Source of the DNA: Mesostigma viride
Taxonomy: Eukaryota; Streptophyta; Mesostigmatophyceae; Mesostigmatales; Mesostigmataceae
Direction of reading: 5' to 3'
NCBI GenBank assembly: GCA_009746045.1
Contig: RPFO01000111.1
Span: 137,001 to 201,000, forward strand
Length of the DNA stretch: 64,000 nt
Shown here: positions 2,748 to 61,600 of the stretch, piece by piece
Layout: every line of letters begins with the position of its first letter
Numbering within the stretch: position 1 is the stretch's first letter
Program-made: the position numbers and the translations under genes
The notes under the pieces: model-generated
Seen by the model: only the letters and a program-made list of their open reading frames with translations
Database searches by the model: none
What the model was told of the DNA's origin: nothing

Positions 2748-5700
2748 CTAGGCATCAACCTGCTGAGGAACCGTGGTCGCTACAGCAGGGCCAGCTGTTG
2801 TTGATGTTGCGGAGGCATCCTTGGTGCCTGCAACCGCCACAACCGTGGCTGCCTCCCCATCCACTTTTGCGGAGAACGGCTGTGCTGCCACTGGTTTGCG
2901 CTCCCATTTAAACTTGGACCTTGGCCCCATTCCCCCCGGGGTATCATGAGGCGATGCGGTGCGTGCAAGACCGGGCGCCGTCACAGGTGTTGCAGGCGTC
3001 ACGCCAGCTGGCTTGTGGGATGCTGCCTGTGGGGTGGACGCCCCACTGCCCGCGGGGGGGCGTGACGCGGTGGCCGCTGGGCTGCTATCGGCATTACGGA
3101 TGGCGGCATTACCGATGGCCGCGGGAGCCGCTGGGGAGGCGGCTGTGGCACTGGCGTTGGTAGCGTGCACGGCGCCCTTGCTTGGGGGCGTGCCGGATGC
3201 TGCGGAAGTAATGGCTGCCAGCGCTGTGGGTCCCCCTGGGGACGGGGCGGCGATTCCGTTGATGGCGGGCGGCTCTCCCTTGGGCATGGCATGCTTGGGC
3301 ACCACCTGGCATTGGCCATCAGGGCAGCAAGTACGATAGGGACGCAATGCAGCGCGCAGGCGGCGCAGGACAAGTTGGTCTTGAGGAAGTGGGATGACTT
3401 GGGACGATCTAACATGAGGAGGGGTCAGGAAAGGAGGTCCAAGGCACCAACACTCCCACAAGAGACACTGCCTCGTGGACCAACCTGCCAGACAAGAACA
3501 AAGTGGCGCACTTCGCAGGAATCGCGCTCCTTCCTGCCCCCACCACCAACGTGTTCCTAGACAACCACTTTGCTCCTTCGCCCCCCTCCGCAAACATGGT
3601 TTACAAAGTTTGAACGTCCCGGCAGGCAGTGGATAGGCAGGTCGGAACAATGTCTAGTGCATTGCACGTATGGGTAACAAAGACATAATCTGTACTGTAA
3701 TGCAATTTTTCAGTCATTGCAGCTTCAATGTGTTGTGCAAATGACCGGGTATACTAAACCAGCACACCAACCACACGCAACCACACGCAACCACACGCAA
3801 CCACACGCAACCACACGCAACCACACGCAACCACACGCAACCACACGCAACCACACGCAACCACACGCAACCACGCGAGTGACACGGAGGACGTCTGCCG
3901 TTGAGATTCTGGAGACTGGCCGGAGCTGCACAGCTCCTGCTCTAAATAAATAACAGTGGGAATCAAAATAACAAACAACCTTCAACCCCCCCCACCTTGA
4001 GCGGTCACGCACACTATACACCTACATCTAGCCCCCCCACCAACCCCCCCCCCCCCCCCACCGACCCCCCACCCCCACCCCCCCCACCCCCCCCCACCCC
4101 CACTCACCCACCCCCCACCCCCATCTTGAGCGGCCACACAAACACAGTTATACCCCCCCCCCCCCAACCACCTTGAGTGGTCGGCTCATGAGTGTGGACC
4201 CGTCAAGCTTGAGTGCGCGCTCGACCGAGGCCTCCTCCTTGAACACCACAAACGCGCAGCTGGCAGGGACAGAAGCATATGGGGGACGGGGGGCCGGGGC
4301 CACACAGGGGGTGCGGCAAGCGTGGGGGGGAGCATGACGCGCAACGATAGCGACCATGCATGAGCCGGGTGTCGACAAAAGAACAGTATGCAACAAGCAG
4401 ACCAGACTTAACCACAGCAGCGCACGCACGATAGCTCAACTGCAGTTGACAACAAGATGGTGAGGTCACAGTGATGCAAGTCTACACATGCACCACCCAC
4501 CTGGAGTGGACCACCACGAGAAAAGCGTGGCGGAAGAAAGCATGCACGCTCCAGTCACTAGTTGGCCATGCGTGTGCCGGCATGGAGCAAAGTCAAGGCT
4601 GTCATGCACGCTATTTGCACAAACTCCTTGGGCAGGGCCCCCTCCACTCATCTCTTTCGTTAACCCCAGTAACATCGCTCGCTTACTCACCCCTTGGCCG
4701 TACACCCCTCTACCATACCCCTCGATTAATACATCGCGCCCCACCAGTAGTACATCGCGCTCACCCCACCAGTGGAAGTTAGCGCCAACCTCTCCGGTAA
4801 TACATCGCGCCCCTCCAGTAATACATCCCGCTCACCCCACCAGTGGAAGTTAGCGCCAACCTCTCCGGTAATACATCGCGCCCCTCCAGTAGTACATCGC
4901 GCTTACCCCTTGGGCAGCGCTCCCCCTCTACTCACCCCTTGGCCACACTCCCCTTTTAATCGACCTCTCTAGTGGCACCTCACAGTCAGCCCCTCGAGTA
5001 ACACCTTGCAATCACCCCTTTGTTTTAGCCTCCCACACTCTACTCCCCTTCGCCATGAACCTTCCCTTGCACTCACCCCTTGGCCATGAACCTTCCCCTG
5101 CACTCACCCCTTGGCCATGAACCTTCCCCTGCACTCACCCCTAGGCCATGAACCTTCCCTTTCACTCACCCCTTGGCCATGAACCTTCCCTTTCACTCAC
5201 CCCTTGGCCATGAACCTTCCCTTTCACTCACCCCTTGGCCATGAACCTTCCCTTTCACTCACCCCTTGGCCATGAACCTTCCCTTTCACTCACCCCTTGG
5301 CCATGAACCTTCCCTTTCACTCACCCCTTGGCCATGAACCTTCCCTTTCACTCACCCCTTGGCCATGAACCTTCCCTTTCACTCACCCCTTGGCCATGAA
5401 CCTTCCCTTTCACTCACCCCTAGGCCATGAACCTTCCCTTTCACTCACCCCTAGGCCATGAACCTTCCCTTTCACTCACCCCTTGGCCATGAACCTTCCC
5501 TTTCACTCACCCCTTGGCCATGAACCTTCCCTTGCACTCACCCCTTGGACAGCCCCGTGCCCGGCTCGGTGAGCAGCGACACGCGCAGGACGTCGCCGCA
5601 CGGCTTGAAGTGGGCCGAGAGGGTGGTCGCCGTCGCCGCAAAATGGACCTGCGGCAGCGTGTGGCAGCATCCCGGGGGGATTTGTGCGGCATGGCGGGTG

Positions 5701-12898: not shown

Positions 12899-15800
12899 CC
12901 CGCGGCCTCACATACATGTTTTCCTGTTCTTGGGGCCCTCACGTCTATGTCTGTTCGTGTTTTCCTGAACGTCGCACGGGCTGTGCCTGTTTCGTGCTTG
13001 CATACGTTGCATCCCTGTGGGTGTGGACCATCCCACTGGGCACACGGCCTTTCCCCCCACCCCACCCCCTTTTGGTGGTGGACCTTCCCCCCCCTCCCCC
13101 CCCCCCCCCCCCCCTTGGGGCAGGACAAGTATCTCCAGAAGAAGCATTTCTCGTCCAACGGGGTTGCGCTGGGGCCCTTCCGCAAGGTGCGCCGTTTGCC
13201 ATAACGTTGAATATTGGTGGTTTGTTTCGAGTGTGCGTGCGATCAATAGTAATGCTGGCCGTGACACAAACGTAATGCTGGCCGAAACACAAAGAGCGAT
13301 ACTGGCCGCAACACAAAATGTAATGCTGGCCGCAACGCAAATAGTAATGCTGACCGCAACGTATCGGTAATGCTGGCCGCAACACATCTGCAATGCTGGC
13401 TGCCACAGGATGACGTATACAATAACGTCATAGCTTCCCAGCTCAACCACGTCACGATTTTACTGCCCACTCAACAAGGTTTGCTGTGAAGCAGGAACCG
13501 CGGCACATGCGAGTGGGTTTACTCACTGCTGCCACTTGGCCGCAAGCACACGGCACTGGCCTGGTTACCTGCACACGGCACTGGTAACCTGCACACGGCA
13601 CTGGTTACCTGCCGAGAACGGGCGTGTGGGGATGAGCCGTGTTGGCATGTGGCATGTTGGAATGTGGCATGTTGGAATATGGCATGCTTGAAAACACCCC
13701 TTTGCGAGCCATCCTGGGAATGCCACCGCTCTGTGCCCGGAGTCGATTACCTGCAGCATGCCCAAGCGCCACTACACATTTTTTTAAACAAGGGCAGCGG
13801 TTTGCAGAACGGTGGGGGCTACGTACGAAAGCGAAAGCCATGAGTGGTGCCATGGCGGTGCACGCTTGCCATCTCTTCTTAGCATTTTGTCTGGCGACCT
13901 TTTCTGGTAGGTTTGGCTGGCATTTGTGGTACGTCTTTTTGTCCTTGGAATGTGTTTATGGCAGGGGTTTCATGTGGCAGAGCAGCTATCTGCATGGGGA
14001 AGCGCAGGATATGCTACCCGTGGGTGCAGCCGTGTGCATTGGCATGCCAACTGACAGCTGGCAGACACAATCCCCTTTTATCTGCCACCCACATCCTGCC
14101 CTCGCCCTCGCCCTCGCCCTCGCCCTCGCCCTCGCCCTCGCCCTCGCCCTCGCCCTCGCCCTCGCCCTCGCCCTCGCCCTCGCCCTCGCCCTCGCCCTCG
14201 CCCTCGCCCTCGCCCTCGCCCTCGCCCTCGCCCTCGCCCTCGCCCTCGCCCTCGCCCTCGCCCTCGCCCTCGCCCTCGCCCTCGCCCTCGCCCTCGCCCT
14301 CGCCCTCGCCCTTGCCCTCGCCCTCGCCCTCGCCCTCGCCTCGCTCTCACTGTTGCATGTGCATCACAGATCGAATCCATTGACGAGGCCTACACGGCCG
14401 GGAAGGACTTTGGCTACCCGCTCATGATCAAGAGCCGGCGACTCGCGTACGACGGCCGAGGCAACGCGGTGGCCCGCTCGGCGGATGAGGTGCAGGCGGC
14501 CATAAAGAGTAGGTGGCCAGGGTGGTGGCCATTGGCAGCAGGTGGTGAGGGGGGCGTGGAAGGTCGGTTGTATATAGCTGCGTGGTGGGTGGCCATCGAC
14601 AGCAAGTGGTGAGGGGGGCGTAGAAGTAATGTTGTAAATAGCTGCGTGGTGGGGGGGGTGGCCATCAACAGCAGGTGATGAGGGGGGCTTGGAAGGTTGG
14701 TTGTAAATAGCTGCGTGGTGAGGGGGGTGGCCAGAAACAGCAGGTAGGGCTTGGAAGGTTGGTGGTAAATACCTGGGTGGTGAGGGGGGCGGCCATCGAC
14801 AGCAGGCGATGAGGGGGGCGTGGAAGGTTGGTTGTAAATAGCTGCGTGGTGAGGGGGGTGGCCGTCAACAGCAGGTGGTGAGGGGGGCGTTGAAGGTTGG
14901 TTATAAATAGCTGCGTGGTGAGGAGGGTGGCCATCCACAGCAGGTGGTGAGGGGGGCGTGGAAGGTTGGTTGTAAGTAGCTGGGTGGTGAGGGGGGTGGC
15001 CATCGACAGCAGGTAGCTGGGCAGGCTATCTAAAAAAAAAAAAGGTAGCGCCCCCCACGTTAAGCCTGGCGTATGGCTCGGTGTGGGGTCAATGCGTTCA
15101 TGCCCCAGGGACCACTTGCCCAGGCCCCAGGGGTGCTTCATGGCCCATGGGGTTGTAACAACTGTGTGGCTTCCGAGTTTCGGGCTTCCTGCAGCTTTCA
15201 TTGGTAAAGGAATACAAGTGTTGCTGCTTCTAAAAAGGTTTCCGTTGCGACAAGAAACCTCTTTTTCCTCTAACAGAGCGCTGCAAGGCAGGCAAGATAT
15301 GCTTTCCTCCTCTTTTGTAATGCTGCGGTTGCCATGGCTGTGCGTTGGATGACAAGTACATGGCACCCTGGCCGGGACACGGCTCCCTGGAAAGGTAGAG
15401 ATCTCTGACTCCTACCTGGTGACCCTGTTGCCCTGTTCGCGTGCCTGGGCGCTACTCCCAGAGCTGGGGGGCATCGAAAACGGACTCTACGTGGAGAAAT
15501 GGTGCCCCTATGTGAAGGTGAATGGACCTGTAGTGCACTTATATGAAGGTGTGCAGGCAAATATTGTGCGTTTGTCAAGAAGTCAAGGTGCGTGGACAAT
15601 CGCCCTTACGTGAATGTGTGTTGCGGCAGGTTGGAGACCGCCAGTGCCTGGCTGGGTTAAGCAATGCCCCGCCCGGGAGGGACCAACCTGTTTGGCATGT
15701 TGTGGTTGCAGAGGATACATGGGGGCTACCCACACGACTCATACACTTGGGTTTGCTGCTGGCTGCTGTCAAGCAGTTCTCATTTTGTTCATGGAAGTCT

Positions 15801-16909: not shown

Positions 16910-19900
16910 AGCTTTATTACTTAATAATAAACTTAATCATCTGCTTAAGGTCGCTCACACACGCATGTAATGCACGTGGATAAAACACAATATCACAAGG
17001 TGGTTGTTGACGACAGCATAAAACAATAACTAGCGTCATTCACAGCTAGGCCAGTGTGCATAGCACGAGGCCATTAAACACCCATGACAACCGGCCTCGC
17101 TCCTTGCTGTCTTGGCCCCCTCCTCGCCAGATTTCTTTTCACTAGATTCCTCCTCGCCAGAAATTGAGGCGCTGTCAAATGCATCACTCTCGTCGATGAT
17201 GTTGACTGGCCGCGATCTTCCTCTTCCTGCGCATTAGACCCATCCTGTTCGTCAACCTCTACTCTCTTGCGTTTGTCGCGGCCCTGCCTGCCCTGCTTTT
17301 CATCTAAACTGCGACCTAGGTCGACGATGTTTTCCGTTGCTTCCGGAACAGTTTCTCCAGCTTGCTTTTTAAACAGAGCATCTAAGGTACTGGTCTTGAA
17401 CCCTGCCAAACCGTTTTTCTTTGACATTCTCTAGCTCAATACTCACTAAACATCGCAGGCCGCCATTATAGAAACCATTTCGCATGCAATATTTTATTAC
17501 ATTAGTCGCCAGACGGCCAGAGGTCGGAGGTCCTGCCTTCCTCGTCTCACAAACTGGCCGCTGCACAGTGCACTCGAGTGCTCGACAAGGTTTTTGTCCA
17601 GGTTTTTAGTTCAGTACTTCTGTTTTGGTACCCGACTGAAATTGTACTGAACTGTACTGTCTTTCCAAACCAACTCTAGTATGAACTGTACTGCAGCATA
17701 CCTAAGATTTGGCTGCTACGCGCCGCTGGACCTGACTCGCGTGGTTGACGAATACCCTAAACATTGCGTCAAACCGGTTGACGAATTGTGGAAAATATTC
17801 GTCAAATGGTTGACGAATTGCCGATTTGGTTGACGAATGTGGTTGACGAATTGCCCAAAATGGTTGACTTTTTTACGACTCATTTTGAAATTCGTCAACC
17901 AGCTGACGAATTCGTCCCGTTAGTAAAAGCACTGGTGCCGACCCATGGCCCAGGCTGATGAAGTGCACTGGAACATCTTCTAATCGCCGCCACTGCCTCG
18001 CGTCGCTCTAACATAAATTATTTCCTTTATTTGTTCATCGCTTCCTCGGACCCCTGCAGGGACAACATCTGCTGGACCGTGGTCTGCCCGGCCTCCGTCC
18101 CTGCCAGCATCGCCAGGGAGGCGACGCGCGTGGCGGAGCGCGCCATCGGCTCCCTCAGCGGCGCGGGCGTGTTCGGGGTGGAGCTGTTTGTGCTGGCGGA
18201 TGGGCAGGTGCGTGCGTTGGGTGGGCAGGTGCGTGCGGGGCTCTGGGCAAGATGCCCTGGCGGGTTGCATGGTAGGTTGCATGGCTTAGAACGGGGGGCC
18301 TCACGTGGGCGGTCTCCGGTGACATGCGGCAGTGGTCAGCGGTGACATGCGGCAGTGCCGATGGTGACATGCGCCAGTGCTGATCGGGGGGCTAAATGCG
18401 GCACAAAAAGACTCGCCCGTTGAGTTCATTTGGCGCGTGCTTCTCCCAATCGGTTTGCTATACCCCGGGTGTGCATGACATCATGCTGTGTGTGTGCATG
18501 ACATGATGATGTGAGTGTGTGCATGACGTCATGGGGCGTGTGTGCATGACATCAGAGGGCGTGTGGTGGCCACGTGGGTGGAACGTGGGCATGGGGTGAG
18601 CCTCGCACTGGACGTGGTCTGTCACGTTACGGACCACTCCGACCGACAGGTGAACCGAACGTGGGCCGCCCGTCGGTTATCGCTACTTCTTGCCTTGCCT
18701 TGCCTTGCCTTGCCTTGCCTTGCCTGGCCTCGCCTCGCCTCGCCTCGCCTCGCCTCGCCTCGCCTCGCCTCGCCTCGCCTCGCCTCGCCTCGCCTCGCCT
18801 CGCCTCGCCTCGCCTCGCCTCGCCTCGCCTCGCCTCGCCTCGCCTCGCCTCGCCTCGCCTCGCCTCGCCTCGCCTCGCCTCGCCTCGCCTCGCCTCGCCT
18901 CGCCTCGCCTCGCCTCGCCTCGCCTCGCCTCGCCTCGCCTCGCCTCGCCTCGCCTCGCCTCGCCTTGCCTTGCCTTGCCTTGCCTTGCCTTGCCTTGCCT
19001 TGCCTTGCCTTGCCTTGCCTTGCCTTGCCTTGCCTTGCCTTGCCTTGCCTTGCCTTGCCTTCAATGCCTCGCCTTGCCATGCCTTGCCTTGCCCTGTCTT
19101 GATTGCCTTGCCTCTCGTCCACGGTTTGCGCAGGTGCTGTTGAATGAGGTGGCGCCACGGCCGCACAACAGCGGTCACTATACGATCGAGGCCTGCGCCA
19201 CGTCCCAGTACGAGCAGCACCTGCGTGCCATCCTGGGCTGGCCGCTGGGCGACACCTCGCTCATGGTGGGCGCGGCCGCCATGCTCAACATTCTCGGCGA
19301 CGGCGATGTGAGTCCACGCAGCGACAGTACGTCATCGTGGCTTGAGTCAGTGGTGCATGCTTGCGGGTGACAAGAGCCAGCAGCGGTAGTAGCAACAGTA
19401 GAAGCTGGGGTTGCTAGAAGTGCCAGCAGCAACAGCACTAGTTGAAAAAGAGCGGGCAGCGGGCAGCGGGCAGCAGGCAGCATTCCTGCGCTCCTTCCTC
19501 TTCCTTGCCGCTCATCCTTGTGCCGGGTACTCATTGTGGCGGCACGCCCATACTGAACTTCTCCTCTCCGCCGGACGGCGTTTGTTCCTCTCCGGATGAT
19601 GGCAGGGCAAGGAGGCGATGGAGGCCGCGTATGCGCTGATGGACGCGGCGATGGAGGTACCAGGGGCCAGCGTGCACTGGTACATGAAGGAAGGTGGGTC
19701 GGTGCTACTACACAAGCTATGGTGACCAGTGCATGAAGGATGCTGGATGGTTATACACAAACTTAGTGACCGGTGTGTGAAGGGAGATGATTTCCATGTT
19801 CTACAAGTAAATTAGCGTGTAGAACAGCCGGGTGCATTAGTGCATGTGCTGAGCGCATGAGGCAAATGTGCACAGGTTCAGTATCAACAATAGTTTATGA

Positions 19901-22900: not shown

Positions 22901-25900
22901 TCAGCAACCTAATGTCAACACACTTCACAGCATCAGCAACCTAATGTCAACACACTTAACAGTATCAGCAACCTAATGTCAACCCACTTAACAGTATCAG
23001 CAACCTAATGTCAACACACTTAACAGTATCAGCAACCTAATGTCAACACACCTAACAGTATCAGCAACCTAATGTCAACACACTTAACAGCATCAGCAAC
23101 CTAATGTCAACACACTTAACAGCATCAGCAACCTAATGTCAACACACTTAACAGCATCAGCAACCTAATGTCAACACACTTAACAGCATCAGCAACCTAA
23201 TGTCAACACACTTAACAGCATCAGCAACCTAATGTCAACACACTTAACAGCATCAGCAACCTAATGTCAACACACTTAACAGCATCAGCAACCTAATGTC
23301 AACACACTTAACAGCATCAGCAACCTAATGTCAACACACTTAACAGCATCAGCAACCTAATGTCAACACACCTAACAGTATCAGCAACCTAATGTCAACA
23401 CACTTAGCAGTATCAGCAACTGGCCGGCATTTGCCGGCCACTGGCCATGTGAAGTTGTTGCCAGCGCGGTGCCGCCTGTGGAAAAAAAGCCTAAATGAAG
23501 CGCTGATGTCCACGTGCGTACGGTTGATGGCAGATGCTAGGCGACTCGTATACTGCTATATAATATGGAAAGGTGTACCCATGGGCGTGCCCACTAGGAA
23601 CAGGACAAGTCGATGCGTGCCGTATGAGGTGGGCGCGCACACTAGCGGGTAGCCCATGGGGGTAATAGGGCCGGTGTGCAGGGTGAGTGGACATCTCCGT
23701 CCGTAGGCGCTATCAGCATCCATGCACCGAGCGTGTGGCTGGAACAGGGCCAGCGGGGGTGAGGTGTGGGGTGGGAAGGCATACCTGTACAGCGACCATG
23801 GGCCGTCACATATGTAGGAAGGCAGGCACGGTTGGAAAGCGTTTGGTGTTGATGAATACGCGGGAGTTTCTTGAAAATAGTTTGGGACAGCGGCACAGGA
23901 GAGACCGCCGCAGGAGGCTGGGAGAGCCGCCAGCTGGAAGTCCTGCCGGCCGCGCGGTTGGCAGATGTTAGTCGAGTCATGTATTAAATATGGACGACAA
24001 TATTAAATATGGACGACAATGTATTAAATATGTAAAGTTGTGAGCCAAGCTATAGTGTTTTGTAGGGATGATGATGCAAGTGTGCCATTGCACGAGACTT
24101 GAATGACGGTTGTCAACGGCTGTCCTGCTTGTCCTAAGAGGAATACAGCTATACGTAGTTTCTCTTTTTGCCTATGGCCTGTTCTTGTGCCGCTCACCCT
24201 CTGGTATCCCTTTGCGTGCCCTATTGGCTTAATATGCCCCTTGCGTTCCCTATTGGTTCGCCCTATTGGCCTATTACACCCCTTACATGCCCTATCGGCC
24301 TATTATGCCCCTTACGTTCCCTATCGGTTTGCCCTATTGGCCTATTACACCCCTTACATGCCCTATTGGTTCGCCCTTTTGGTCTATTATGCCCCTTGTG
24401 TTCCCTATTGGCCTATTATGCCCCTTACGTTCTCTATTGGCCTAATATGCCCCTTACGCTCCCTATTGGTTCGCCCTACTGGCTATTACACCCCTTACAT
24501 GCCCTATTGGTTCGCCCTATTGGTCTATTACGCCCCTTGTGTTCCCTATTGGCCTATTATGCCCCTTACGTTCTCTATTGGCCTATTATGCCCCTTACGT
24601 TCCCTATCGGCCTATTATGCCCCTTATGCTCCCTATTGGTTCGCCCTATTGGTCTATTACGCCCCTTGCGTGCCCTAGTGGCCTATTATGCCCCTTACGT
24701 TCCCTATTGGTTCGCCCTTTTTGCCTATTATGCCCCTTACGTTCCCTATTTGTTCGCCCTTTTTGCCTACTATGCCCCTTACGTTCCCTATGGGTCCGCA
24801 GCTCACTGTGGTGTCCGCCCACCGCACACCCGCGCGCATGGTGGAGTATGCGAAGAAGGCGCACACGCGGGGCATCCAGGTCATCATCGCTGGGGCGGGG
24901 GGCGCTGCGCACCTGCCGGGTGGGTTGCTGGCGTGTCTGTGGTCCTGGGGCTCATCCTCCTTTCTGTGATTGGGTACGCTAATGTCATGGGTAAATGAAC
25001 GCACTGAGAAAATGGCCATCTATTCGGGATGCCAGGTTGACAAGCACCTGTGCCTCCCTGCCCAGGGCTACACAAGGGGAGCCCTTAGCACTTTAAAGCG
25101 GGCCATGGCTGTTCACCGCAGGCCTAGCGTTGCAGTTGTGCGCTGGTCGTGGTCTTGTTACCCCTTGCCATGTGTCAAATGGTGCGGGCAACATGAGCCA
25201 TCCTGCGTGCATGCCCTGGGTGCGAGAATGGCTGCTGTGGGGGGGGGCGGGGGTGTTCAATACCCGGGCTGGCACCATGCCCCGCATGTGCTTTAATACA
25301 TCTTCAAGAAGTTTCTCGTGATGTGTTAATTAACTTATTTATTACGCGTAGTAATGGCTGTCTGAGTATCTGAGAGATGTGGGTCGCCCCCATATTTGCG
25401 TCCCCGGATGGCGTGGATCGGCATCCCCCCTCCTACCTGAGCGGGTAACCACGTTTCTCCCACCCTCCCAGGGCCCTAACCCGTGCTCAAATGGATGTGG
25501 CACCGCGCAGGCATGGTGGCCGCGATGACGCCGCTGCCCGTTGTGGGCGTGCCCGTGCGCGCCAGCTCGCTGGACGGCATGGACTCCCTCCTTTCCATCG
25601 TGCAGGTGAGGGGTGGCACGCGTGCGGGCCATGCGGGGGCACCCACGGGATGCCCGGCCATGGTTTCACGGGCTGCTAAATTGTCGGTACGACATGTTGC
25701 CCTTGTGCTGAAGGCTAGTTCTAGTGTGTGTGTCGCTAAACAAGACGCAAGGGGTGGGGGCAAGAAACGACCTTGAGCAGTCTTGGCCCATGGAGTGGAA
25801 TAAAGGGAGTGTGTGGCAACACCCTGTACTTTGGGCTCAAAACTGCTGCCCACCGGACAGGCAGGGCTATAAAGAGACGCTGCCTGACTATTTTGCGTTA

Positions 25901-32300: not shown

Positions 32301-35300
32301 CTAGAGATGAATGAGCATCGGCCTTGGGGAGATTCTTGCCGCCACCTGGACAAAAGGGTGGTGGAGACAGAACAGGTGGCTAGTGGTGGTGGTGTCAGTG
32401 ATGGTACTATTGGAGTGATAGCAGGTCGTCAGCAATGCAGGAGGGTGTTGGTGTTCCTGTTAATGGTGGTGAGGTGGTGGTGGCGGCATTGTGTTTGTTG
32501 TTGGTGGCAGTGTTGTTGTTGGTGGCAGTGGTGTTCTCAGTAATGGCGGTGGCGACGGTCAAGGGGTGAGCATAAAAGCTACGATCGCAAGCACCCTCAA
32601 AACTCAGCGCACCCAACCTGAAGACGACAAGTAGAGTACTCGCCCTCCCGGCCTCCACACCCAGGGAACCCACCTGCATGCTCTCTCCACGCTTCTGCAC
32701 CAGCTTGAGGCCATCCTCAAAGCTGCGGATGAAACATAGGTACGCAAGAGGGTAGGAACGTGGGAACAAGTGCACCGAGGGGTTAGCGTGTGGGTGGCCA
32801 TTGTGTTGAGATGCTGAGTGCCGATAGCACCAGCAGAGGGAAAAAAATGATACAAACTTGGTGTCATGAACCCAAACAGGAGGAAAAATGGTTTCGACTT
32901 AGGACTTAGTTTTTTTGCAAAACTTAGCCCTGACCGGGAGAAGACAAGTCTGCGGCCTGCGGGGGCTGAGATTAAATAAGAGGTACCTTGAAATTAAATA
33001 AGAGGCGTGCATCTATGAATATATAGTTTTGGAGGCGAGTTTCTGTTGGCGTTAAGTCGTAGTATTGTACGATTGATAGATTGGTAGTGCATTGGTGGTA
33101 CTGCACGACGGTATTGGACGGAGTTCCCGGAATCCCGGTCTGGCAAGCGGATTTTGCATCTCACGGGTACATCTCACGGGTACACGACGCGGCACGACGT
33201 TGTACAGCAAAATGGCTCGCAGAAAAGCTAGGAACCTGGGCGACTATTTGGCGCCGCGTCGGTCGTGACGTTGTTTACTCCGTTGGATCTGCATCTACGG
33301 CGTTTGTGGGTTGTTTCGAAACCCGGTCGATGAGATTTTAAGGAGAAGTGGGGTATATAACTGATCCTTTTTTGACAACTTTGTGAAAATGTAAAAGTCG
33401 AGATGAATTAAACGGCTTGACATGTTGTCGTCCACTACTACACGTTAACGCCAATCGAAACTCGCGTCCAAAAATATATCTGGATAGAGGCATGTCTCGT
33501 ATGTAATTTCAAGGTACCTCTTGATTAATCTCGGGCCCCGCCTCGGGCTATAAGTTTGCAAAAAAAAAGTCTTTAAGTCCGGGCAAAGGTGAACAGGAGG
33601 AAAAATGAGAGCCCAAACACTCCCTGCCCCCCCCTGCAACACGTCTCCAAAGAAGCTTTTCTCCCGACTTCTTTCCCCCCTCCCCCATTCCCCTCCTTAC
33701 CCCTCCCCCCCCCCTCAACTGCGAGCAAGCGCGAAGCACCCACCTGAGCGCGCCCGCGAAGGTGAGCGCCGTGTACTCGCCCAGGCTGAGACCCGCCGCC
33801 ACATTGCACTTTGCGATGATGTCCGCGCCGCCCTCGGTGGCCTTGAGCTTCTCCAGCCCTGCCAGGGAGGAGACAAAGATGGCCGGCTGGGAGGGGAGAG
33901 AGGGGGAGACACATAGATGGCAGCAGGAGGAGAAGAGGACGACCACGACATGTCAGCGCACACAGGTGATCAGGGTGGGGAAGGCATGGGAGGGCAACCA
34001 TCAGGGCGTGGAAGACATGGGCCTGCACACAACAGGGAGCAAGTGGTGAAGGCATGGCCGTGCAAGCATGAGATGGACCACGTGTCGCAGTCAGACAGGT
34101 GCTATCAAAAGACAGGGATGCAGCGTAATGGCAGTGGAGTGGCAAGCACCCCTGAAATACACTCATTTTGGTTAAGGTGCTTATATATACGTACAGACGC
34201 AGAGGGCTTGTGACGACCAGGCAGTCCTCCCACCGCATCCTCATGGTGCCCTACCTGGCTGACAGCCGAGCGCTCGCACGATGCCCTACCTGCCTGATGT
34301 TGCTATTCTTGTCCATGCCATCTACTAGCCCCTTCCCCTACCTGGCTGATGGCGGTCGAGTTGAGCTTCTCCGCAGGGCCCTCGATGCACAGCTTGAGAA
34401 GGTCAAAACTGTAGGGGGGGGGGGGCGGCGCGAGCAGAAGGCAGGTGTAGGGGCAGGAGCAAGTGTAAGGGTAGGCGTGTCAGATATAGGGGGGCGGGCC
34501 AACGCGGCAAGGCATGCGCAAGGGCGGCCGTGGAAGGGGGCCGATGATGCTCCACACGGTGCGCAGGAGGGAATGGGGGCCATGGGGGGGGAGGCCAGTG
34601 GAAGAGGCAAGGCGGGAGGGGCGGGAGGCATGCGGGAAAGTCAGGGGAGCGCTTCAGGTGTGCATGGGGGACATGCAGGGCACGGGGGCATGAGGGCACA
34701 CCTGCAAAATCTAGCTTACCCCAGCACTTCGTTGGCGCGCGCAAAGAGCTCCTTGGCGGCGGGCACTGTCTCCGTCACCTCCTTCGCCATGCCCACACTT
34801 TGGGCTCCCTGACAACGCAGTAGAGAAACAGCCACCGCACAAGGGGACAGCCACCGCGCGAGAGCACATTTTTCTGGTTTATTTGTACATGATTTAGTTA
34901 GGGTGATGGCAACACCGCACATCCCCACGCGGGTGGGCATCGCATGGGGGGCAGGCGGCAGTGTCAGGGACACGGCCTTGGTATGGGTCGCTCCAAGGTA
35001 TACACAGGGGGGAGCGCTCCATTTAGTTGCAATGACAGGAGCTGCGTCCCATCGGATGGGCACAACGCAGTGGGCCTGCACTCATTAGAAGCAAGTGACT
35101 GCATGCTGCCTGGGCATTCTTGGCCCAAAACAACAGTGCGGCATTGACACACGAGTTGCCTCCCGTCAGAGATCTGTGTGTCCTAGGTGCTGGTGATGTG
35201 TCGCGTTACTGTGGTGCGAGTGCCAGTAGTACAGATAAGGGTAAAGGGGGCCAGCAGGGAGTAAAAGGGAACAGGGGCAAGCAATAAGGAATGGGAGAAC

Positions 35301-38937: not shown

Positions 38938-39341
38938 ACATTTTATATGACACTGAAGGGATGTTACGTCCTTGGAATTTCAAAGCCCCAGGTCAAACGG
39001 AAAAGGTTTACTATTTTAAGGTTTCATGTTTGAAATGTGGTTGTTTCCATGCAAAGAGCAGCCTCCAAATTCATAACTTGGCCACCTCTAGAAATCACGC
39101 GGACTGAACAGGCTAACTCGCCGTGGACTGGTACCTAACTAATTGGCTGCACAAATTCAGCGTCGATCAGAAGATTTGTATTGTGGCCATGCCTAGGTTG
39201 GGGGGATGCCCCCCCCCCCCATTTGGCCAGAAGTGTGACCTTTTGGCTGGGCTGGGTGCACTTTTGGCGGGGCGCGCCAGCTGGCGCCAAAGTCCTGGCG
39301 CCGGGTACGGAAGGTTACCTATGGTCCACCTTAATAGTCTT

Positions 39342-40883: not shown

Positions 40884-41050
40884 CTCCCCCTCATGCGGCT
40901 GCCTAGATAGATGTTGTAGTTAGCATGTTGTTAGATAGATGTAGATAGATTAGACCGGTAGGAATGTTGCACCCATCCATCCATCCATCGGGGTTAATGC
41001 TCCGTGACTCCCCAACGGGAGCACGAGTCTAATTAATTAATTAATTAATT
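39342..41050 (+). mobile_element. LINE family A, 5'-truncated copy with open RT frame
   Basis: A non-LTR retrotransposon copy lacking its 5' part, including any endonuclease. It ends with a 3' UTR containing (CATC)n, a hairpin at 41003-41025 and a (TTAA)n tail. The direct repeat AATAGTCTT at 39333-39341 and 41051-41059 marks the target site. The insertion lies exactly at the 5' junction of a second, older family A copy. Confidence 0.85.
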
Positions 41051-41059
41051 AATAGTCTT

Positions 41060-44766: not shown

Positions 44767-45612
44767 ATGTCACAAAAAGAAAGTTTTATCACGCAGTACA
44801 CGGGTAACACAGAGAAAGTCAGTCGACCACCCATCAATAAGCAAGGTTCTGGGAAGCAAACCGGATCACAGGGTTCTTCTTCATCGTCAAAGGCCGGAGC
44901 GTCAAACGGAAACCAAGGTCTGCTCTCGTCCTTTCTGTGCTGCGTACGGCCATACAAGGATGTTTGTGACGTACGAACAGCTGGCAATGTCGCCACGGCT
45001 GTCTCACACCGGTCCACCCCGCGCGCTGCCCCACGCACGCCGGTTAGAAAGCCGCTTCCCCATGCTCCTCTGATGGCCCCAATGCTTCCGGAAGACAGAG
45101 GCAAGAAGTCCTTGGTGCTAGACCTGGACGAGACCTTGGTGCACAGCTCCTTCAAGCCGGTTCCAAACCCTGACTTTATTATTCCAGTGGAGATTGACAA
45201 CCGCATCACGGACGTGTACGTTTTGAAGAGGCCATGGGTGGATGACTTCATCAAGGCTGTGGGTGATCGCTTTGAAATAGTTATCTACACAGCGTCCCTC
45301 AGCAAATATGCCAACCCGCTGCTGGACTTGCTTGATCCAGATCGAGTATTTCGGTATCGCCTCTTCCGCGAGGACTGCACTCCGTATGAGGGCAACTACG
45401 TCAAGGATCTTGCCAACATGGGCCGCCCTCTCAAGGATGTGATTATCATCGACAACTCTCCCCATTCCTATGCATTCCAGCCGGAGAATGCTATTCCCAT
45501 TAGTTCATTTATTGACGATCCAGAAGATCAGGAGCTGCTGGATTTGATCCCCTATCTGATTGCCATGCAAGACGTGGAGGATGTGCGGACTGTGCTGGGC
45601 GGGCAGCACTAA
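44767..45612 (+). CDS. SCP/FCP1-type CTD phosphatase (HAD family), intronless
   Basis: A 281-aa protein in one uninterrupted frame. The N-terminal 105 residues are Ser/Pro-rich with FLCCV (possible lipidation site). The FCP1-homology domain follows: the HAD motif LDLDETLVHSS supplies Asp119 (nucleophile) and Asp121, then RPWVDDF, IYTASLSKYA, YRLFRE, KDLANMGRPL and IIIDNSPHSYAFQPENAI. This matches small C-terminal-domain phosphatases, which dephosphorylate serines of the RNA polymerase II tail or other nuclear targets. The active-site motifs are complete and the length is close to animal SCP1. No intron is present although the neighbouring genes are split into many exons. The start is the first ATG of the frame after a non-coding stretch. 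Confidence 0.93.
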   Translation: MSQKESFITQYTGNTEKVSRPPINKQGSGKQTGSQGSSSSSKAGASNGNQGLLSSFLCCVRPYKDVCDVRTAGNVATAVSHRSTPRAAPRTPVRKPLPHAPLMAPMLPEDRGKKSLVLDLDETLVHSSFKPVPNPDFIIPVEIDNRITDVYVLKRPWVDDFIKAVGDRFEIVIYTASLSKYANPLLDLLDPDRVFRYRLFREDCTPYEGNYVKDLANMGRPLKDVIIIDNSPHSYAFQPENAIPISSFIDDPEDQELLDLIPYLIAMQDVEDVRTVLGGQH

Positions 45613-55602: not shown

Positions 55603-58600
55603 ATGCCGCCGGGGAAAGCCTCTGCACAGAACCCTTTGGTGCTGGCTATCGATGACAAGGTAACCGAAGTTGTAAGTGGGCTAGTCTTTCCATGCTTACA
55701 TGGCTGAATCAGCCATTTCATGCGTAGATGTCTCGGCGCCCCTTTGCTTACAGCGTGTGGATGTTGCTAGCAAACGCACGCAGCTCGAATTCAGGTTGAT
55801 ATCCCGCGTGGGAGGCTGTCGATCAGTTCAGTGGCGCGTCCATCCTTATCCCATTCTCTGGATGTGTATGCCGAGTAGTCAAAGCTCCCCACGCCCCCCG
55901 TGCACCCAGCGCACAAGGGCACCACCTCAACATCTTTGGACACGGAGAGCCTGTACATCTAGCATACCGGTGGCCCCTTTGCCCTGGACGCCGCAATGCC
56001 CTGGATTTTACTTCGCGGCGTGCTGGAGCAATGCTGCACAAATGTCGCCTGATATGCTCGATACCGTCTCCGGACGTCGCGGCCTAATGGGTTTGCCTTC
56101 CATGAGGAGTACATCTATCTTAATGGTGTGCATGTGCCACCCTCGCTGCGCGCCCCTGCTGTCCCCCAGGGTGCCTCGTGGGGAGTGGTGGCGGACCGCG
56201 AGCACGATGAGCTGGAGCAGCTGTTCGACTCCGACAAGTGCAAGGCCATGGCGCGGTGGGCGCGCATCGTCTCCTGGGTGTCCCTGTGGCTGACCTTCTT
56301 TGCGGGCGTGCTGGGCCTGATCGCAGCACTTGTGTTCAGCAGGTGAGTAGGGGCGGCACTCGTGTTCAGCAGGTGAGTAAGGGCCGTAAGCAGGTAGGGG
56401 CGGCACTCGTGTTCAGCAGGTGAGTAGGTGCAGTAAGGAGGTAGGGGCTGTGGTACCAAGGTAGGGGGTTCATCGGGTAGGGGCAATAACGAGGTAGGGA
56501 TTTACCAGAGAGAGGCGAGACTAGGTAGTTAGAAGGGGTGGTTGCCTTGTGAGGCTTTTAGGGTAAAGCGGGTGGGCATACAGCAGGCAGGCGTAAAGCA
56601 GGTAGGGTCAAAGCATGTAGAGGTAAAGCAGTTAGGCGTAAAGCAGGCGGGCATGGCAGTGCCAGCTGTCATACGCCCGTGATGCGCTAGGCTGTGTCAT
56701 CACGGCCTGTTTTCGACGGTGCAGGAGGGCCTTGTGTGCGGGCATCAACTTGTACAAGTATGCTTGGGCATCAATTACCGTAGCGGGTCACCAATCAGGC
56801 GCCGCGTGAGGCAGCGTGGCTTGTGGCCCGCGAACGCGGGCATCCCCCCCCCCCCCCCTGCCTCCGCCCTGCTTGCCGCTTACATCTAGCGTGTGGAGCA
56901 TGTGCAGCCTGTCGTCATACCCACCCCTGGCTCACCCCCCCGCCCCTACCTCCCCAGCCCCACCCGAACAAGTAAGTGATACTGTCCCACTTCTATGATG
57001 ATGTCGAACCCTACCACGCGAGCAGAGCTAGATAGTGCCATGCGCGCAAAGCCCTCGACAGTCTCACGTGCCAGCCACATGCCCAGGGGCCGGTGCATGC
57101 AATCCACCTGCATGAACACTTGCTGGTAGCTCCTGGCCGAAAGAACGGTGCATTCCGTGTGCGTGGGCGCCCTGCCCTCATGGACAGTGGCAGCGAGCAC
57201 CGCTGGGAGTCCTCTCACCCGCATCTAGCGCGGTGTCTGTCACACAACGAGGACGGAGACCAACCCACGCTCTCGCACCCTGCCGCATGCCGCCTAGCAC
57301 CCATGTGTAGCATGGAACCTCGGACCCCAGGGTGGTACGGTAGGGCTGGGGCTCCCACAGGGCTGGGGATGCCACCCAGCTCGTGGCATGAGGCTGGTGC
57401 TTGCCACCTGGCTGTTGGCACCTTCCCCCGCCACCGTAGCAATCTCGTGGGCGGTGCCCTGTCGCCATGTGGAGCGCCATATGCTGGCCCATAGTGTAAT
57501 CACGAGACCATTTTCCTTTCTTTTCTGAAGCCCTGCATCCATGGATTACTCTTTCCTTATGCGCCTCTCCCCATGCGCCATGCCCCATGCCTCGTGCATG
57601 ACCTGCCATCCGCTTGGGTGCGTCTAACCCCTTCTCCCCCCCCCTCGTCGCGTGTGCCACCAGACCATCCTTGTGTGTGTGCTACTCACCCACCCATCCA
57701 TCCCCCATTATATTTGCTGCCCCAGCGCCCCCCCCCCCCCCCAAACCCCTCCTCCTATCTGCCACCAACCCACGTTGCAATGTGCCCCTCTCCCCCACCT
57801 TCCAACATACCGTATTTCCTCCACCTTCCAACATACCCCATGTCACCCACCTTCCACCATGCACCTTCCCCCCACCTTGCATCCCACCAGCGCGGCCACG
57901 CTGGGTTACGCGCTCGAGGCCTTTGTCGACATGTTCTCCTCAGTGCTCGTGTTGTGGCGCTTCCGCTTCGAGGATGAGGACGAGACGGTGAGGGACGATG
58001 CCCTACTCTGCCACGCGGACGCATACCACGGTGCCAGCTTGTCATCACGCCAACATGCCAACATGCCGCTGGCATGCCACAGTGCCTGCCATGCCCTGCC
58101 ACTCTGCCGCCATGCCGCCATCCTATTTTTCCGCCATGCGTTGGCCATCTCATGCCGCCACGCCGCCACGCCGCCATGCCATCTGCCTGCTGTCATCGTG
58201 GTAAACGTTGCTGGGTGTGATGCGGTCCAAGCATTTTGGTGGTTGGGATGGTGGACATGCGCAAGTACGCGCAATCACGGCTGGCCGCTGGCGTCGTTCG
58301 TGCAAGGTCGTGTCCGCCATGCGACGCAGGGCAGCATGGCCCGCACCGCTGACGCTGGGCACTGCACTGTGGTGCTAGCCAGCATTATGCGCAGGCACGC
58401 CGTGCGCAGCCGTGGGTGGATTGCTCGCGTGGCATGGGAGGTAGCAACCAGCGGCAGCATCAGGGGTATCTGTTCACTACATCGTAATGCAACTCTGTTC
58501 ATAACATCTTGTAATGCAAATATGTTCATTAGTTCTAAATGCAAACACGTTGCTATCCATACATTATAATGAAGAACAAGCGCTTGGTTTTAAAATGCCT

Positions 58601-61600
58601 ACGTCGCCTGGGATGACGTGTGGAGCTATAGTGGTAGATAGGCCGCCACCACAAGGGAGCCATCACACGCCACCGCCGAGGTCATCCCTTCCCATCCGAC
58701 GCCTCAACCAACTGCTCCTTCCTGCGTGCCTAGTGTTGCGCGTGGAACCTTCCCTGGTCTCAAGCCTGGCCCCAACCTGGGCCCGTCCGCCTGTACACAT
58801 GGCGTCAGCTCCAGCCTGCCCTGCTCCCTCCTTGCGTTGCAGCGCATGGCTACCATCAGTGGACGCGATACCTGCATCCATCCGCGTGGGGACGTGAATG
58901 CCGCAAAGTGTTGATGGGGTGTGGCACGGCGCAGCTTCCTTTGCTGTGTGGTCACTGTTGGTATTTGTCTCTACATTTCCTGTCAGGTTTGTGGTGCTTA
59001 GTACGGTGCTACCATGGACTGCTCTAGAAATTGATAGACTACTCTACCAGTTGGCGGGGTTGGCAGCACCCACTGACACCTCTGCTGCGCATTTTCCTGG
59101 TTTGGTCCCCGCTGGCCCGTTATTTTTTGTGGCAGGTGTCCGCGCGCGCGAATGCCAGCAGGGAGCGGCGTGCGTCGGTCGGAATCGCGGTCGCGGTGGG
59201 TGGCCATCCCCTCTTCCCATCCCCTCTTCCCGTCGCCCCTTCCCATCCCCCCTTTCCATCGCCCCTTCCCATCCCCTCTTCCCATCAGCCCTTCCCATGG
59301 CCCCTTCCCATGGCCCCTCCCAATCGCCCCTCCCCATCGTCCCTCCCCATCGCCCCTTCCCATCGCCTCTCCCCATCGCCCCTCCCCATCGCCCCTCCCC
59401 ATTGCCCCTCCCCATCGCCCCTCCCCATCGCCCCTTCCCATCGCCCCTTTCCATCGCCCCTCCCCATGGCCCCTCCCCATGGCCCCTTCCCATCGCCCCT
59501 CCCCATCGTCCCTCCCCATCGCCTCTCCCCATCGCCCCTTCCCATCGTCCCTCCCCATCGCCCTTTCCCATCAATCAATTCCATCCCTTCCCATCCTCAA
59601 GACGAGCTAGTGACAGGCTAGCAGACGAGGGTGTGTAATGTCCTTGCCACCGACATGCTTACCTCCCACCTTCCTTCTCCCAATCCACCAACCCACCAAG
59701 AAAGGTGGCAAGCTAGCCTGCACCCACCTGCCTGCACGCCGGTGGGATTCCGTTGGTTCCGCTTGTCCCCTCCCCGCTGCCCACTGTCCCTTCCATTACT
59801 CGCCGTCCACCCCACACCTCCACCCCACATCGCTCCCTGCCTCTTGCCCCCCCCAGCTCATCTTCATCTCCATCCTGGTGGGCGTCAAGGCCATGCTCCA
59901 CATCGTCAACGGCATCGTGCCAGACCGTGCGGTGCTGCTGCAGCTGCTGTCGACCGTCTCGATCATATCCATGTCGCTGCTGGCGGCCGTCAAGTACTAC
60001 ATCGCGGTACGGTGGTAGCCTATCAGTGCATGTACTGCATCATAAGTACAGCATCGTGGTATGGCTCTATGAACGATACTACATCCATGATACTTTATTA
60101 CGCAGTACGTTTATAATAACAAAAGGTAAAAAGCGTCAGGGCACATTCATTATCAGTACGTTTGTATGGAATGTACCACATCATGCCAAGTGCCATCAAC
60201 CAGTGCTACACCGCGGTAGTCTGTCATTTGTGCGTCGCGTTTCTTAAGTAGAACGTGCTACGCCGCGTCAGGTGCCACAACGGGTATGTCTGCACGCACA
60301 CTCGTGCATTTATACACACTCACCCATTTATAAAACCCCTTCTCCAACAAAGGGGAGCAAGACTGACCTTGTTCAACCATGTTTTCTGAGTGCCCCAAAT
60401 GCTGAGCCCCCCGCGTTGCCTGGGATGTGAAATCGGACGAGACCGCAACAACTGGCCTATCCTATACTCCCAATGGAGGGACCGTTATCTTTCTATGACA
60501 AAGAAGCGAAGATTCCGTGCCATTTCGGTCGGCCGTGAAAGACCCTCACCATTCTACAAGGGGTGTCTACTGCCCGCAGATGCCAGCACTGGGATAGAGG
60601 GAACTGTCAGCAAATTCGTGCACTGTGCCCGCACCGGCTGTCAACTGATCATCCCTCTGGTGAGGTGGGGCCTGCGTCGCCGTCATGTCAAAAGTGGTTG
60701 CGGCGCGCAGGGATGTGGGGCGACCGACACCAGCAGTGCCAAATGCGGTGCCAAGGCCAGTTGTGCCAAACGCAGTTCCACCGCCACCAGTGCCGTGGAA
60801 GTGGACCTGGGTCTGGGGGGGAGGCAGGCTGGGGTTGCCTGGAAGCATGTTTGCCTGTGTTGGGAACCAGCCTCACCAGTTGCGGGGATAGATCCTGCGG
60901 TAAATGCCTGCAGGTCGAGACATGCCATGGGTGGGGTATGCTTAGTCATGGGATGCCATCTCCCAACTCGGGTGGTGCTGCTAGTGGCCAAGGAGTTCTG
61001 CAGACTTTGCAGCCGGTACACCTCATCAAAGTTACGCGTTGCCATAGTCTATCATGGGCAATCACGATGACGGATGCTGACGCACACGTTACCCATGAGA
61101 CGACCAGGGACGATGCGCAGTTGTTGCTCGTGTGGAGACGACACCCTGCAGCATTGTTTTTCATTGGTCGCCGTCCATTGGTTGCCGTTGTCTCTTGCCT
61201 TGTCTGCCAGCACTCACCTTCCTGATGGCCAACCCGTGCGCACACGGTGCTTACGGGCCGTTTCTCACCCTTTTCCAATGCTCTATCTCCCCACCTCCCC
61301 CCGGCCCCCGCTGCTCCCCCCACCACCCACCACCCCCACCCCAATCCCTTGTCCCATGTGTTACCAAATTGTTGGTGTCTCCCTGTCTCCCTGGCCCCGT
61401 GTCGTTCTGTCCGTTCCGCAACAATGTCCACCCTGCCTCTCTCCCCGCCCTCCTTCCTGTTGTCTTCCCTCTCCACCCGCTCGCTCTTGGCCCTTTTGCC
61501 CCCCCCCCCCCCCCTCCCAGGCCGTTCTCCGCAGCCAGGCCATGCAGAACGACGCGCACTCCTCTCTGGCCGTGGTGTTCATGTCCATCGGTGTGCTGGC

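Follow-up and report, generated by a model that had tools for sequence, protein, structure and literature searches.

How does the end of an exon, together with the 5' splice site that follows it, come to recur inside the adjoining intron? This question is raised by a 64,000-nt stretch of Mesostigma viride DNA (GCA_009746045.1, contig RPFO01000111.1, positions 137,001-201,000 of the forward strand; hereafter the window), for which a sequence-only reading had claimed such copies in 11 introns and had attributed them to repeated duplication across the exon-intron boundary. We modelled 35 introns in five genes of this one window: 15 in AIRC/PurK-PurE, nine in MCAT, five each in RRM and the TMEM163-like gene, and one in a gene for an A20/AN1 protein. 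The MCAT model is identical to the JGI Mesvir1 protein (361/361 residues), the spliced RRM model yields a full-length RRM_1 match, and the modelled donors of every AIRC and TMEM intron (I) listed below agree with the published proteins. The published AIRC protein is without our modelled exon 15 and has its last exon read in a different frame; at the TMEM I5 acceptor, our model retains five residues absent from the published protein. An internal frame shift in RRM exon 3 reflects either an additional intron or an error around 8.3-7.7 kb, a region outside the 35 introns.

Three junctions that were slightly off (AIRC I2, TMEM I1 and TMEM I4, none of them among the listed cases) were corrected against the published models. 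The initial junction set underlies the list of copies, the p values of individual introns, the 24-nt self-similarity profile, the TRF coverage and crossing counts, and the RRM I4 donor scores. The corrected set underlies the main permutation test and its controls, the intergenic comparison, the GT and reading-frame counts, the G-skew, the within-gene permutation and the blastn search.

Matched and mismatched exon-intron junctions

We joined the last 30 nt of each exon to the first 10 nt of its intron, compared this 40-mer with the rest of that intron, and used the 34 mismatched junctions as the null. The matched junction was strictly best in 10 of the 35 introns, where about one is expected (permutation p 5e-5), and in 12 it ranked within the best 5%; prior to junction correction, these counts were 10 and 13. 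This excess over mismatched exon-intron pairs in the 35 introns of the window confirms that exon end and donor recur inside their own intron in about one-third of the window's introns, as had been proposed. The donor effect persisted when we permuted within genes and when each large gene was omitted. Base composition is ruled out as the cause by the within-gene permutation and by the reverse-complement control, in which the same scoring gave 0/35 best (1/35 under one other scoring); exon interiors, scored in this way, gave 0/35 as well. Since one and the same window both prompted the hypothesis and served to test it, the p values describe this window and are no replication.

The acceptor side differs. 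An acceptor window (-10..+30) under the same scoring was best in 0/35 introns (p 0.96), and the tally within the best 5% was 12/35 for donors versus 0/35 for acceptors (Fisher p 0.00016; paired Wilcoxon p 0.00015). The contrast was weaker for exon-only 18-mers (6/35 on the donor side versus 1/35 on the acceptor side within the best 5%). A mostly intronic acceptor window (-25..+15) was best in 1/35 introns with p 0.003, so the intron tail is slightly repetitive and the next exon is not.

Under a stricter null, in which the intron's own first 10 bases were joined to random coding 30-mers, 11/35 introns reached p<=0.05 and 8/35 passed a 5% false-discovery rate; the p values given for single introns below derive from this null. 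We count 12 cases, namely the 11 introns of the sequence-only reading, which had mostly chosen rightly, and AIRC I6, which it had missed; five of the 12 are weak taken singly. AIRC I5 and I6 are counted though outside the best 5%, and each falls inside under one other scoring. AIRC I13 and RRM I3 are among the 12 introns within the best 5% but are not counted: the former owes its match only to a G-rich stretch of the exon that does not include the junction, and the latter is too weak (p 0.066, stricter null), as is AIRC I15 (p 0.12, stricter null).

Copies in individual introns and their donors

The list comprises 47 copies; 13 further low-scoring rows with the junction (scores 9-11) and rows without the junction were dropped. 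In RRM I4 (reverse strand), TRF and the copy list reveal a 31-bp tandem array of 16.3 units (5045..5548) that starts within the exon and repeats the exon end CCAAGGG plus the donor GTGAGT, with the predicted real donor at 5541. Five older, degraded copies of exon end and donor occupy 4615..5020 on the same strand (junctions at +526, +606, +635, +851 and +917). A 31-mer of the array had no exact match in viral_contigs, which says little. In RRM I5 (3986..4171, reverse strand; p 0.041), the donor at 4171 is followed by two degraded copies (4133-4111, 4006-3986). The AIRC cases are on the forward strand. In I5 (14509..15017; p 0.058, weak), the donor at 14509 is followed by an array of units of about 69 bp with eight aligned junction copies, and in I6 (15518..15618; p 0.019) the donor at 15518 is followed by three decayed copies (15533-15551, 15582-15597, 15602-15618). 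I8 (18208..18237; p 0.0008) has its donor at 18208 and, through a 21-bp duplication, a copy at 18219-18237 (18/19 identical); in I10 (19694..19789; p 0.011), the donor at 19694 precedes two decayed exon-end copies (19729-19746, 19769-19789). I12 contains one copy of exon end and donor (23615..23633; p 0.0025), and its predicted real donor is at 22381.

On the reverse strand, MCAT I3 (34249..34341; p 0.0025) possesses a donor at 34341 and copies at 34299-34284 (15/16) and 34262-34249 (14/14), MCAT I8 (30781..30845; p 0.0008) a donor at 30845 and a copy at 30808-30781 (24/27), and MCAT I9 (29966..30120; p 0.0008) a donor at 30120 and three copies (30096-30056, 30032-29999, 29991-29966). In the TMEM163-like gene (forward strand), I2 (56326..56448; p 0.0008) has its donor at 56343 and overlapping 30-bp and 47-bp repeats found by TRF, the first of which starts within the exon; the copies are at 56353-56384 and 56400-56431 (29/32 each). 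I5 of this gene (60007..60218; p 0.023) has its donor at 60007 and decayed copies at 60044-60064 and 60202-60218.

The copies do stem from the exon end and add intron length, as had been suggested. That they decay with distance holds for RRM I4 (identity 0.84-0.90 up to +465 and 0.55-0.68 from +526) and fails for AIRC I12, where 18/19 positions are identical in the sole copy, at +1248. Not every intron calls for repeated duplication across the boundary. Copies resemble one another more than the junction in AIRC I5 (identity 0.80 vs 0.67) and RRM I5 (0.74 vs 0.59), and the central units of RRM I4 are near-identical; this pattern is expected from one or a few captures and subsequent amplification within the intron. 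Judged by their sequences, several arrays thus look as if they had been amplified inside the intron after capture, and repeated boundary duplication need not be assumed in these three introns. In MCAT I3, MCAT I9, TMEM I5 and AIRC I6, the copies are no closer to one another than to the junction, so several captures are possible there.

A GT accompanies the copied exon end in 35 of the 47 copies, so the claim that the donor is copied along holds for these; it fails for the eight copies of AIRC I5, all of which have GC at the exact equivalent, and for both copies of AIRC I10, which lack a GT. One might suppose that the copies are functional and kept by selection, be it as spare or decoy donors or as U1 snRNP sites that guard long introns against premature cleavage, and the retained GTs would fit this idea. 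It would also fit that, among the five oldest copies in RRM I4, three have kept CCAAGGG followed by GTGAGT or GTAAGC while their flanks diverged. Yet 20 of the 35 GT copies belong to RRM I4, and with this intron excluded GT is found in only 15/27 copies and in none from AIRC I5 or AIRC I10; some long introns (AIRC I7, 1484 nt) have no copy, and the core would look preserved simply because the real exon and donor are conserved. We therefore regard a function of the copies as very improbable.

Used as a donor, a copy would cause a frame shift or a stop in 42/47 instances (32/35 of those with GT); five of the 47 copies are open in frame, and three GT copies could be used without breaking the frame (AIRC I8 +21; MCAT I9 +51 and +153). 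The published protein models of MCAT, AIRC and TMEM use the most upstream donor at the listed introns, in agreement with the earlier placement of the copies downstream of the donor backed by protein conservation, and homologues with solved structures have no extra residues across MCAT I3, I8 and I9 and AIRC I8 and I10. In RRM I4, 18 downstream donors score at least as high as the predicted real donor. Of two equally strong donors, the intron-proximal one wins in mammalian in vitro splicing; this rule would predict use of the downstream copy, against a reading in which the first donor is chosen.

Repeats across introns, splice sites and intergenic DNA

Self-similarity is high across the intron, extends into roughly the last 10-20 nt of the upstream exon, and is zero by the acceptor and the downstream exon. 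In 24-nt windows, the mean z is 1.8-1.9 over the donor, dips to 1.1 at +8 and is about 1.9-2.7 further into the intron. The donor thus scores no higher than the intron interior, a strong donor hot spot is rejected, and the idea of the boundary as a special site was overstated; the boundary is not clearly a special duplication site. With 40-mers, the donor is somewhat above mid-intron (best in 10/35 vs 5/35, mean z 1.33 vs 1.06), so a mild excess is possible. What stands out is that the repeats run across the donor, do not run across the acceptor, and hardly occur in intergenic DNA. TRF arrays (period >=15, score >=50) take up 15.7% of the bases in introns, against 0.7% in intergenic DNA and 1.0% in exons; clusters with a period >=6 number 43 in introns, four in intergenic DNA and four in exons, and the mean self-similarity z is 2.55 in introns, whereas 35 intergenic pieces of matching size, each represented by three 40-mers, average -0.06. 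TRF arrays with a period >=4 cross the donors of RRM I4 and TMEM I2 and leave the other 33 uncrossed; they end within 21 bp of nine acceptors and cross 0/35.

That these introns are merely repetitive, with a few ordinary minisatellites overlapping donors by accident, would agree with the lack of a clear excess of repetition in donor windows over intron interiors and with arrays that contain only 2/35 donors. Chance should, however, strike acceptors equally, and none of the 35 is struck; matched junctions moreover outscore mismatched ones even within genes, and the reverse-complement control is null. We hold such an accident to be highly unlikely.

Alternatively, the asymmetry could be mutational: a G-rich sense strand after the donor might promote R-loops during transcription and, through them, tandem duplication at the 5' end of the intron. 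The repeats are mostly restricted to introns, and the sense-strand G-skew after the donor has a median of 0.25 in introns with copies versus -0.02 in those without (p 0.0009); it is 0.185 (p 0.009) when the copies are masked and RRM I4 and AIRC I5 excluded (10 introns). Such a skew can, however, result from copying a G-rich donor, and repeats are also frequent in the 3' part of introns, where the skew is towards C, as TRF coverage per intron tenth from 5' to 3' demonstrates (0.23, 0.32, 0.19, 0.26, 0.16, 0.14, 0.11, 0.10, 0.19, 0.22). We rate this explanation as unlikely.

Intron growth and known systems

We consider it probable that local duplication within introns, tolerated on the donor side and removed on the acceptor side, explains the pattern in M. 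viride. This reading builds on extra copies at donors only, on repeats concentrated in introns, on the exon source of the copies and on the use of the most upstream donor in the published models. Introns would lengthen through local tandem duplication of short DNA segments. Where the segment includes the 5' splice site, its upstream copy would stay functional and the downstream copy of exon end and donor would become intron, an event that would be tolerated because the protein is unchanged; the captured copy may then be amplified within the intron as a minisatellite, and decay. A duplication over the 3' splice site would put a complete upstream acceptor ahead of the old one, and since this first-made acceptor, if used, adds sequence to the mRNA, such duplications would be removed by selection. 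Splicing via the most upstream donor would thus be the filter on intron duplications. We infer that the first donor to be transcribed is the one to which splicing commits, and that the donor/acceptor asymmetry arises from selection rather than mutation; against the latter step stands that mutation biased towards the 5' end would yield the same pattern. Selection on splicing does not explain the scarcity of intergenic repeats, which needs either transcription- or intron-linked mutation or a faster turnover of intergenic DNA by transposons.

More tentatively, and with doubts that outweigh our confidence, these elements may be joined: duplication would be nearly restricted to DNA that is transcribed and then removed by splicing, in a domain that begins about 20 nt upstream of the donor and ends about 30 nt short of the acceptor; as the first donor would prevail, every donor-spanning event would be accepted. 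Introns would then grow by a one-way ratchet, possibly with many equal donors before one acceptor. The pattern bears on how introns lengthen and on how one donor is chosen among many equal ones, and RRM I4 with its equal-or-better downstream donors is a natural competition test for the second. The donor-only pattern predicts a general rule, namely that a duplication is tolerated over a 5' splice site but not over a 3' splice site. Should tandem duplication prove truly intron-confined, an early-branching relative of land plants would be likely to have a source of mutation tied to transcription or splicing.

Tandem duplication of an AGGT-containing segment is a proposed route to new introns, as the sequence-only reading noted. 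On this route a single duplicated segment would supply both splice sites, and the exon end would be expected again at the far end of the intron. The exon end was not found to recur at the 3' end of the 35 introns: the last 20 nt of the exon were best in 0/35 against the last 40 nt of the intron (p 0.43) and in 1/35 against the last 60 nt (p 0.74), and the listed copy nearest to an acceptor is at least 365 nt away from it. Human tandem arrays are likewise said to figure in intron gain, to go by the title of a 2007 study by Zhuo et al. Intron gain by tandem duplication is described, in the accessible parts of the respective papers, for a potato RdRp gene (PMC4974935) and for Drosophila cases (PMC2891723). 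In these systems as in Mesostigma, a segment with a splice site is duplicated and exon sequence is turned into intron; the potato and Drosophila cases, as far as those parts describe them, are new introns or intron positions, whereas in Mesostigma only the donor side is duplicated. Introner elements would appear as nearly identical introns at numerous unrelated sites; an all-versus-all blastn of the window's 35 introns (low-complexity filter, E<=1e-3) gave no match between different introns. The accessible text of the M. viride genome paper (PMC6947507) reports a mean intron of 1141.9 bp, with 30.1% of intron space consisting of repetitive elements and long terminal repeat elements as the largest repeat class; its main text, to that extent, has no match to 'tandem repeat' or 'splic'. 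Repeat-driven lengthening of introns in the same species is common to both studies, with LTR elements stressed in the accessible part of that paper and tandem duplication here.

The earlier remark that such reiteration is not known to be described needs to be narrowed, as single loci are known already; for such copies on a comparable scale, or confined to donors, no report appeared among the matches listed for tandem duplication, intron gain, minisatellite, donor and Mesostigma literature, a weak negative that applies mainly beyond subscription papers. The human IFI6 gene reportedly contains, by the title of a 1995 paper, a minisatellite whose units supply splice donors. Two downstream repeat units serve as donors there and three mRNAs result, according to the accessible part of a later source (PMC4526556). 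The likeness lies in a tandem array straddling an exon-intron junction, seen by TRF at RRM I4 and TMEM I2. IFI6 is one locus, whereas in Mesostigma about one-third of the introns of one window, in several genes, are affected; and downstream units are used in IFI6, as far as that part of the source tells, whereas the published Mesostigma protein models use the most upstream donor.

Introns that repeat their own exon-donor junctions

Mesostigma viride is a unicellular streptophyte alga, and for the present analysis we reconstructed 35 introns across five genes encoding AIR carboxylase (PurK-PurE; AIRC), MCAT, an RRM protein (RRM), a TMEM163-like protein (TMEM) and, as the fifth gene in the window, an A20/AN1 zinc-finger protein. 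Three junctions were adjusted to agree with published proteins, and a possible additional intron within RRM exon 3 was excluded. Our MCAT model corresponds to Mesvir1/1885 of the published JGI protein models (identical across 361/361 residues in a search of 5.8 billion proteins), and it is this JGI label, Mesvir1, that assigns the window to M. viride. AIRC matched Mesvir1/1883 (98% identity, 92% of the query covered), the TMEM163-like protein matched Mesvir1/1887 (95% identity), and the RRM product matched the RRM_1 profile at 70/70 positions. Between 8300 and 7700 on the minus strand, the long RRM exon changes frame, through either a short additional intron or an error in the sequence, and admits many splice solutions. 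The published JGI protein lacks AIRC exon 15 (26158-26264), which forms part of the PurE domain in our model, and its end follows a different frame.

The sequence-only reading had listed 11 introns in which the exon end and donor recur further downstream. We took the last 30 nt of each exon together with the first 10 nt of its intron, aligned this junction locally to the remainder of that intron, and compared the outcome with those obtained when the junctions of the 34 other introns were aligned there instead. In 10 of the 35 introns the matched junction was strictly best, and in 12 it ranked within the best 5%. The permutation p of 5e-5 (the minimum reachable with 20,000 permutations) stems, without independent replication, from the same 64-kb window that first drew attention to the pattern. 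Two alternative scorings gave 9 and 10 strictly best introns, and 12 and 14 within the best 5%. The p value was unchanged by permutation within genes and by omission of any one of the four large genes; single-gene values were 5e-5 (AIRC), 0.007 (RRM), 0.026 (MCAT) and 0.08 (TMEM). Since exon sequence by itself (its last 18 or 30 nt) was best in 4 to 6 of 35 introns, the donor consensus is not the sole source of the signal. Reverse-complemented junctions were best in 0, 0 and 1 of 35 introns under the three scorings, and exon-interior segments in none under any of them (1/35 with a slightly different interior window).

Under a stricter null, which kept each intron's own first 10 bases and substituted 1,200 random coding 30-mers for the exon sequence, 11/35 introns reached p<=0.05, 7 reached p<=0.01 and 8 passed a 5% false-discovery rate; 600 whole coding 40-mers gave 12, 7 and 7, respectively. 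These comparisons support the 11 introns with differing confidence. RRM intron 4, TMEM intron 2, MCAT introns 3, 8 and 9, and AIRC introns 8 and 12 are strong cases, and AIRC introns 6 and 10, RRM intron 5 and TMEM intron 5 are weaker ones. AIRC intron 6 is additional to the original 11, while AIRC intron 5 (p 0.058, stricter null) lies above the 0.05 line. AIRC intron 13, among the 10 strictly best, was discounted because its match excludes the junction.

Donor choice and the difference between intron ends

Our list of copies, i.e., recurrences of the exon end and donor within the intron, comprises 47 entries and omits 13 weaker rows containing a junction. The GT proposed to recur with the exon end is kept at the donor position in 35 copies and missing from the other 12; outside RRM intron 4, it is kept in 15/27. 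The copies might serve as spare donors or as U1 sites, but the loss of the GT from 12 of those 27 speaks against this. As predicted from the sequence, splicing at a copy would cause a frame shift or stop for 42/47. The five open in-frame copies lie (in nt downstream of the real donor) at +93 (GC) in AIRC intron 5, +21 in AIRC intron 8, and +51, +108 (GG) and +153 in MCAT intron 9, so that 3/35 GT copies would be usable without frame damage. The published protein models employ the most upstream donor at MCAT introns 3, 8 and 9, AIRC introns 5, 6, 8, 10 and 12, and TMEM introns 2 and 5. In RRM intron 4, the score of the real donor is equalled or exceeded at 18 downstream sites; the scoring matrix was derived from the 35 donors, of which three had been placed slightly wrongly.

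The corresponding acceptor test (intron end, 10 nt, joined to the start of the following exon, 30 nt) was best in 0/35 introns (p 0.96), likewise under all three scorings, and no acceptor reached 0.05 under the stricter null. In a self-similarity profile of 24-nt windows across introns and flanks, exon windows on the donor side stay at background until about -24; the increase begins at -16, reaches 1.9 at -8, drops to 1.1 at +8 and then runs near 1.6-2.7 within the intron. Compared with the intron interior, the donor does not clearly stand out as a hot spot, which speaks against the wording of the sequence-only reading; with 40-mers it lies somewhat above mid-intron (best in 10 versus 5 of 35). 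On the acceptor side, the profile starts to fall at about -30, and both the acceptor and the next exon are at zero. Some of the fall just before acceptors may be a side effect of pyrimidine tracts, because these are alike in all introns and lift the mismatched scores; this has no bearing on the absence of exon starts from introns. With exon sequence alone, the two intron ends differ less than with the junction (18-mers within the best 5%: exon end 6/35, exon start 1/35). Called tandem repeat (TRF) arrays of period >=4 approach 9 acceptors within 21 bp and cross none of the 35; they cross 2/35 donors.

In mammalian in vitro work, the intron-proximal of two equally strong donors is preferred. 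Were this valid here, the downstream copies would be used, so the choice must be settled either by exon definition or by commitment, as transcription proceeds, to whichever donor comes first. If the first-transcribed splice site wins, both intron ends would be accounted for, with duplicated donors harmless and duplicated acceptors harmful; we infer that such a rule could underlie the donor/acceptor difference.

Pyrimidine-rich simple or tandem repeats precede several AIRC acceptors (intron 3, 13083-13115; intron 4, 14098-14348; intron 8, 18692-19113; intron 12, 24217-24799) and look as if the polypyrimidine tracts themselves were expanded. The last 200 nt are C-skewed in 30/35 introns. A contribution of R-loops to the repeats fits the G skew that donor-copy introns carry on the sense strand past the donor, also with the copies masked; however, the C-skewed 3' intron parts are also rich in repeats, and the G skew may be a consequence rather than a cause.

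Origin of the copies

The exon is the source of the copies, as judged from sequence comparison, because it encodes conserved residues and adds none relative to solved homologues (MCAT introns 3, 8 and 9; AIRC introns 8 and 10). In 11/12 introns, the distance from the real donor downstream to the first copy is 21 to 56 nt, as expected if units of this length had been duplicated in tandem; the exception is AIRC intron 12 (1248 nt). Decay of the copies with distance, also proposed, is seen in RRM intron 4 and fails in AIRC intron 12. Copies in AIRC intron 5 and RRM intron 5 are closer to one another than to the junction, the two copies in TMEM intron 2 have common changes relative to the exon, and RRM intron 4 has near-identical central units, whereas the first and last units of its array have older bases in common (mean copy-copy and copy-junction identity both 0.80). 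These relations suggest one capture followed by amplification within each of the four introns. In MCAT introns 3 and 9, TMEM intron 5 and AIRC intron 6, the copies are no closer to each other, so that more than one capture is possible.

The exon end did not recur at the intron 3' end (last 40 nt, best in 0/35, p 0.43; last 60 nt, 1/35, p 0.74), and blastn found no match between different introns of the 35. We therefore rejected fresh AGGT-type introns on the former ground and introner copies on the latter.

Repeats outside introns and relation to known systems

TRF arrays (period >=6, score >=50) cover 19.2% of intronic, 0.9% of intergenic and 1.6% of exonic bases, in 43, 4 and 4 clusters, respectively; all four intergenic clusters fall between 40.9 and 43.7 kb. 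Independently of TRF, 40-mers compared with the rest of their own intron gave a mean z of 2.55, and those from 35 size-matched intergenic pieces (three each) -0.06. Young transposon DNA may explain some of this difference, because the intergenic part contains reverse-transcriptase reading frames. These occupy 39117-40883 and 49849-51174; RVT_1 was found in 39117-40880 and 50075-50521 and not in 49849-50214. Visual inspection showed further similar fragments at 41045-41668 and near 28.4-28.6 kb and 63.1-63.4 kb. MCAT intron 4 holds an insertion-like element of roughly 700 bp (32875-33607), whose 114-nt inverted arms (82% complementary) are flanked by a perfect 16-bp direct repeat, AACAGGAGGAAAAATG, the layout that a transposon with target-site duplication would leave. 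An NLI-interacting-factor-like phosphatase frame (44653-45612) has no visible introns, and the palindromic word ACGCGATNNATCGCGTT occurs by eye three times near the window start (661-719 and 2328-2400).

All our counts describe 35 introns in one window, from genomic and protein sequence of one species' genome region. Among the matches listed in literature searches that covered mainly openly accessible papers, none described donors duplicated recurrently in many introns or an asymmetry confined to donors. The M. viride genome paper describes the introns as long (mean length 1141.9 bp), with repeats making up 30.1% of intron space, and its main text contains neither 'tandem repeat' nor 'splic' (PMC6947507). 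Introns gained through tandem duplication have been described in potato (PMC4974935) and Drosophila (PMC2891723), and for human tandem arrays PMC3488318 cites Zhuo et al. (2007). In human IFI6, a minisatellite supplies several splice donors (Turri et al., 1995, cited in PMC2915984, PMC2572611 and PMC4526556), and two downstream repeat units act as donors (PMC4526556).
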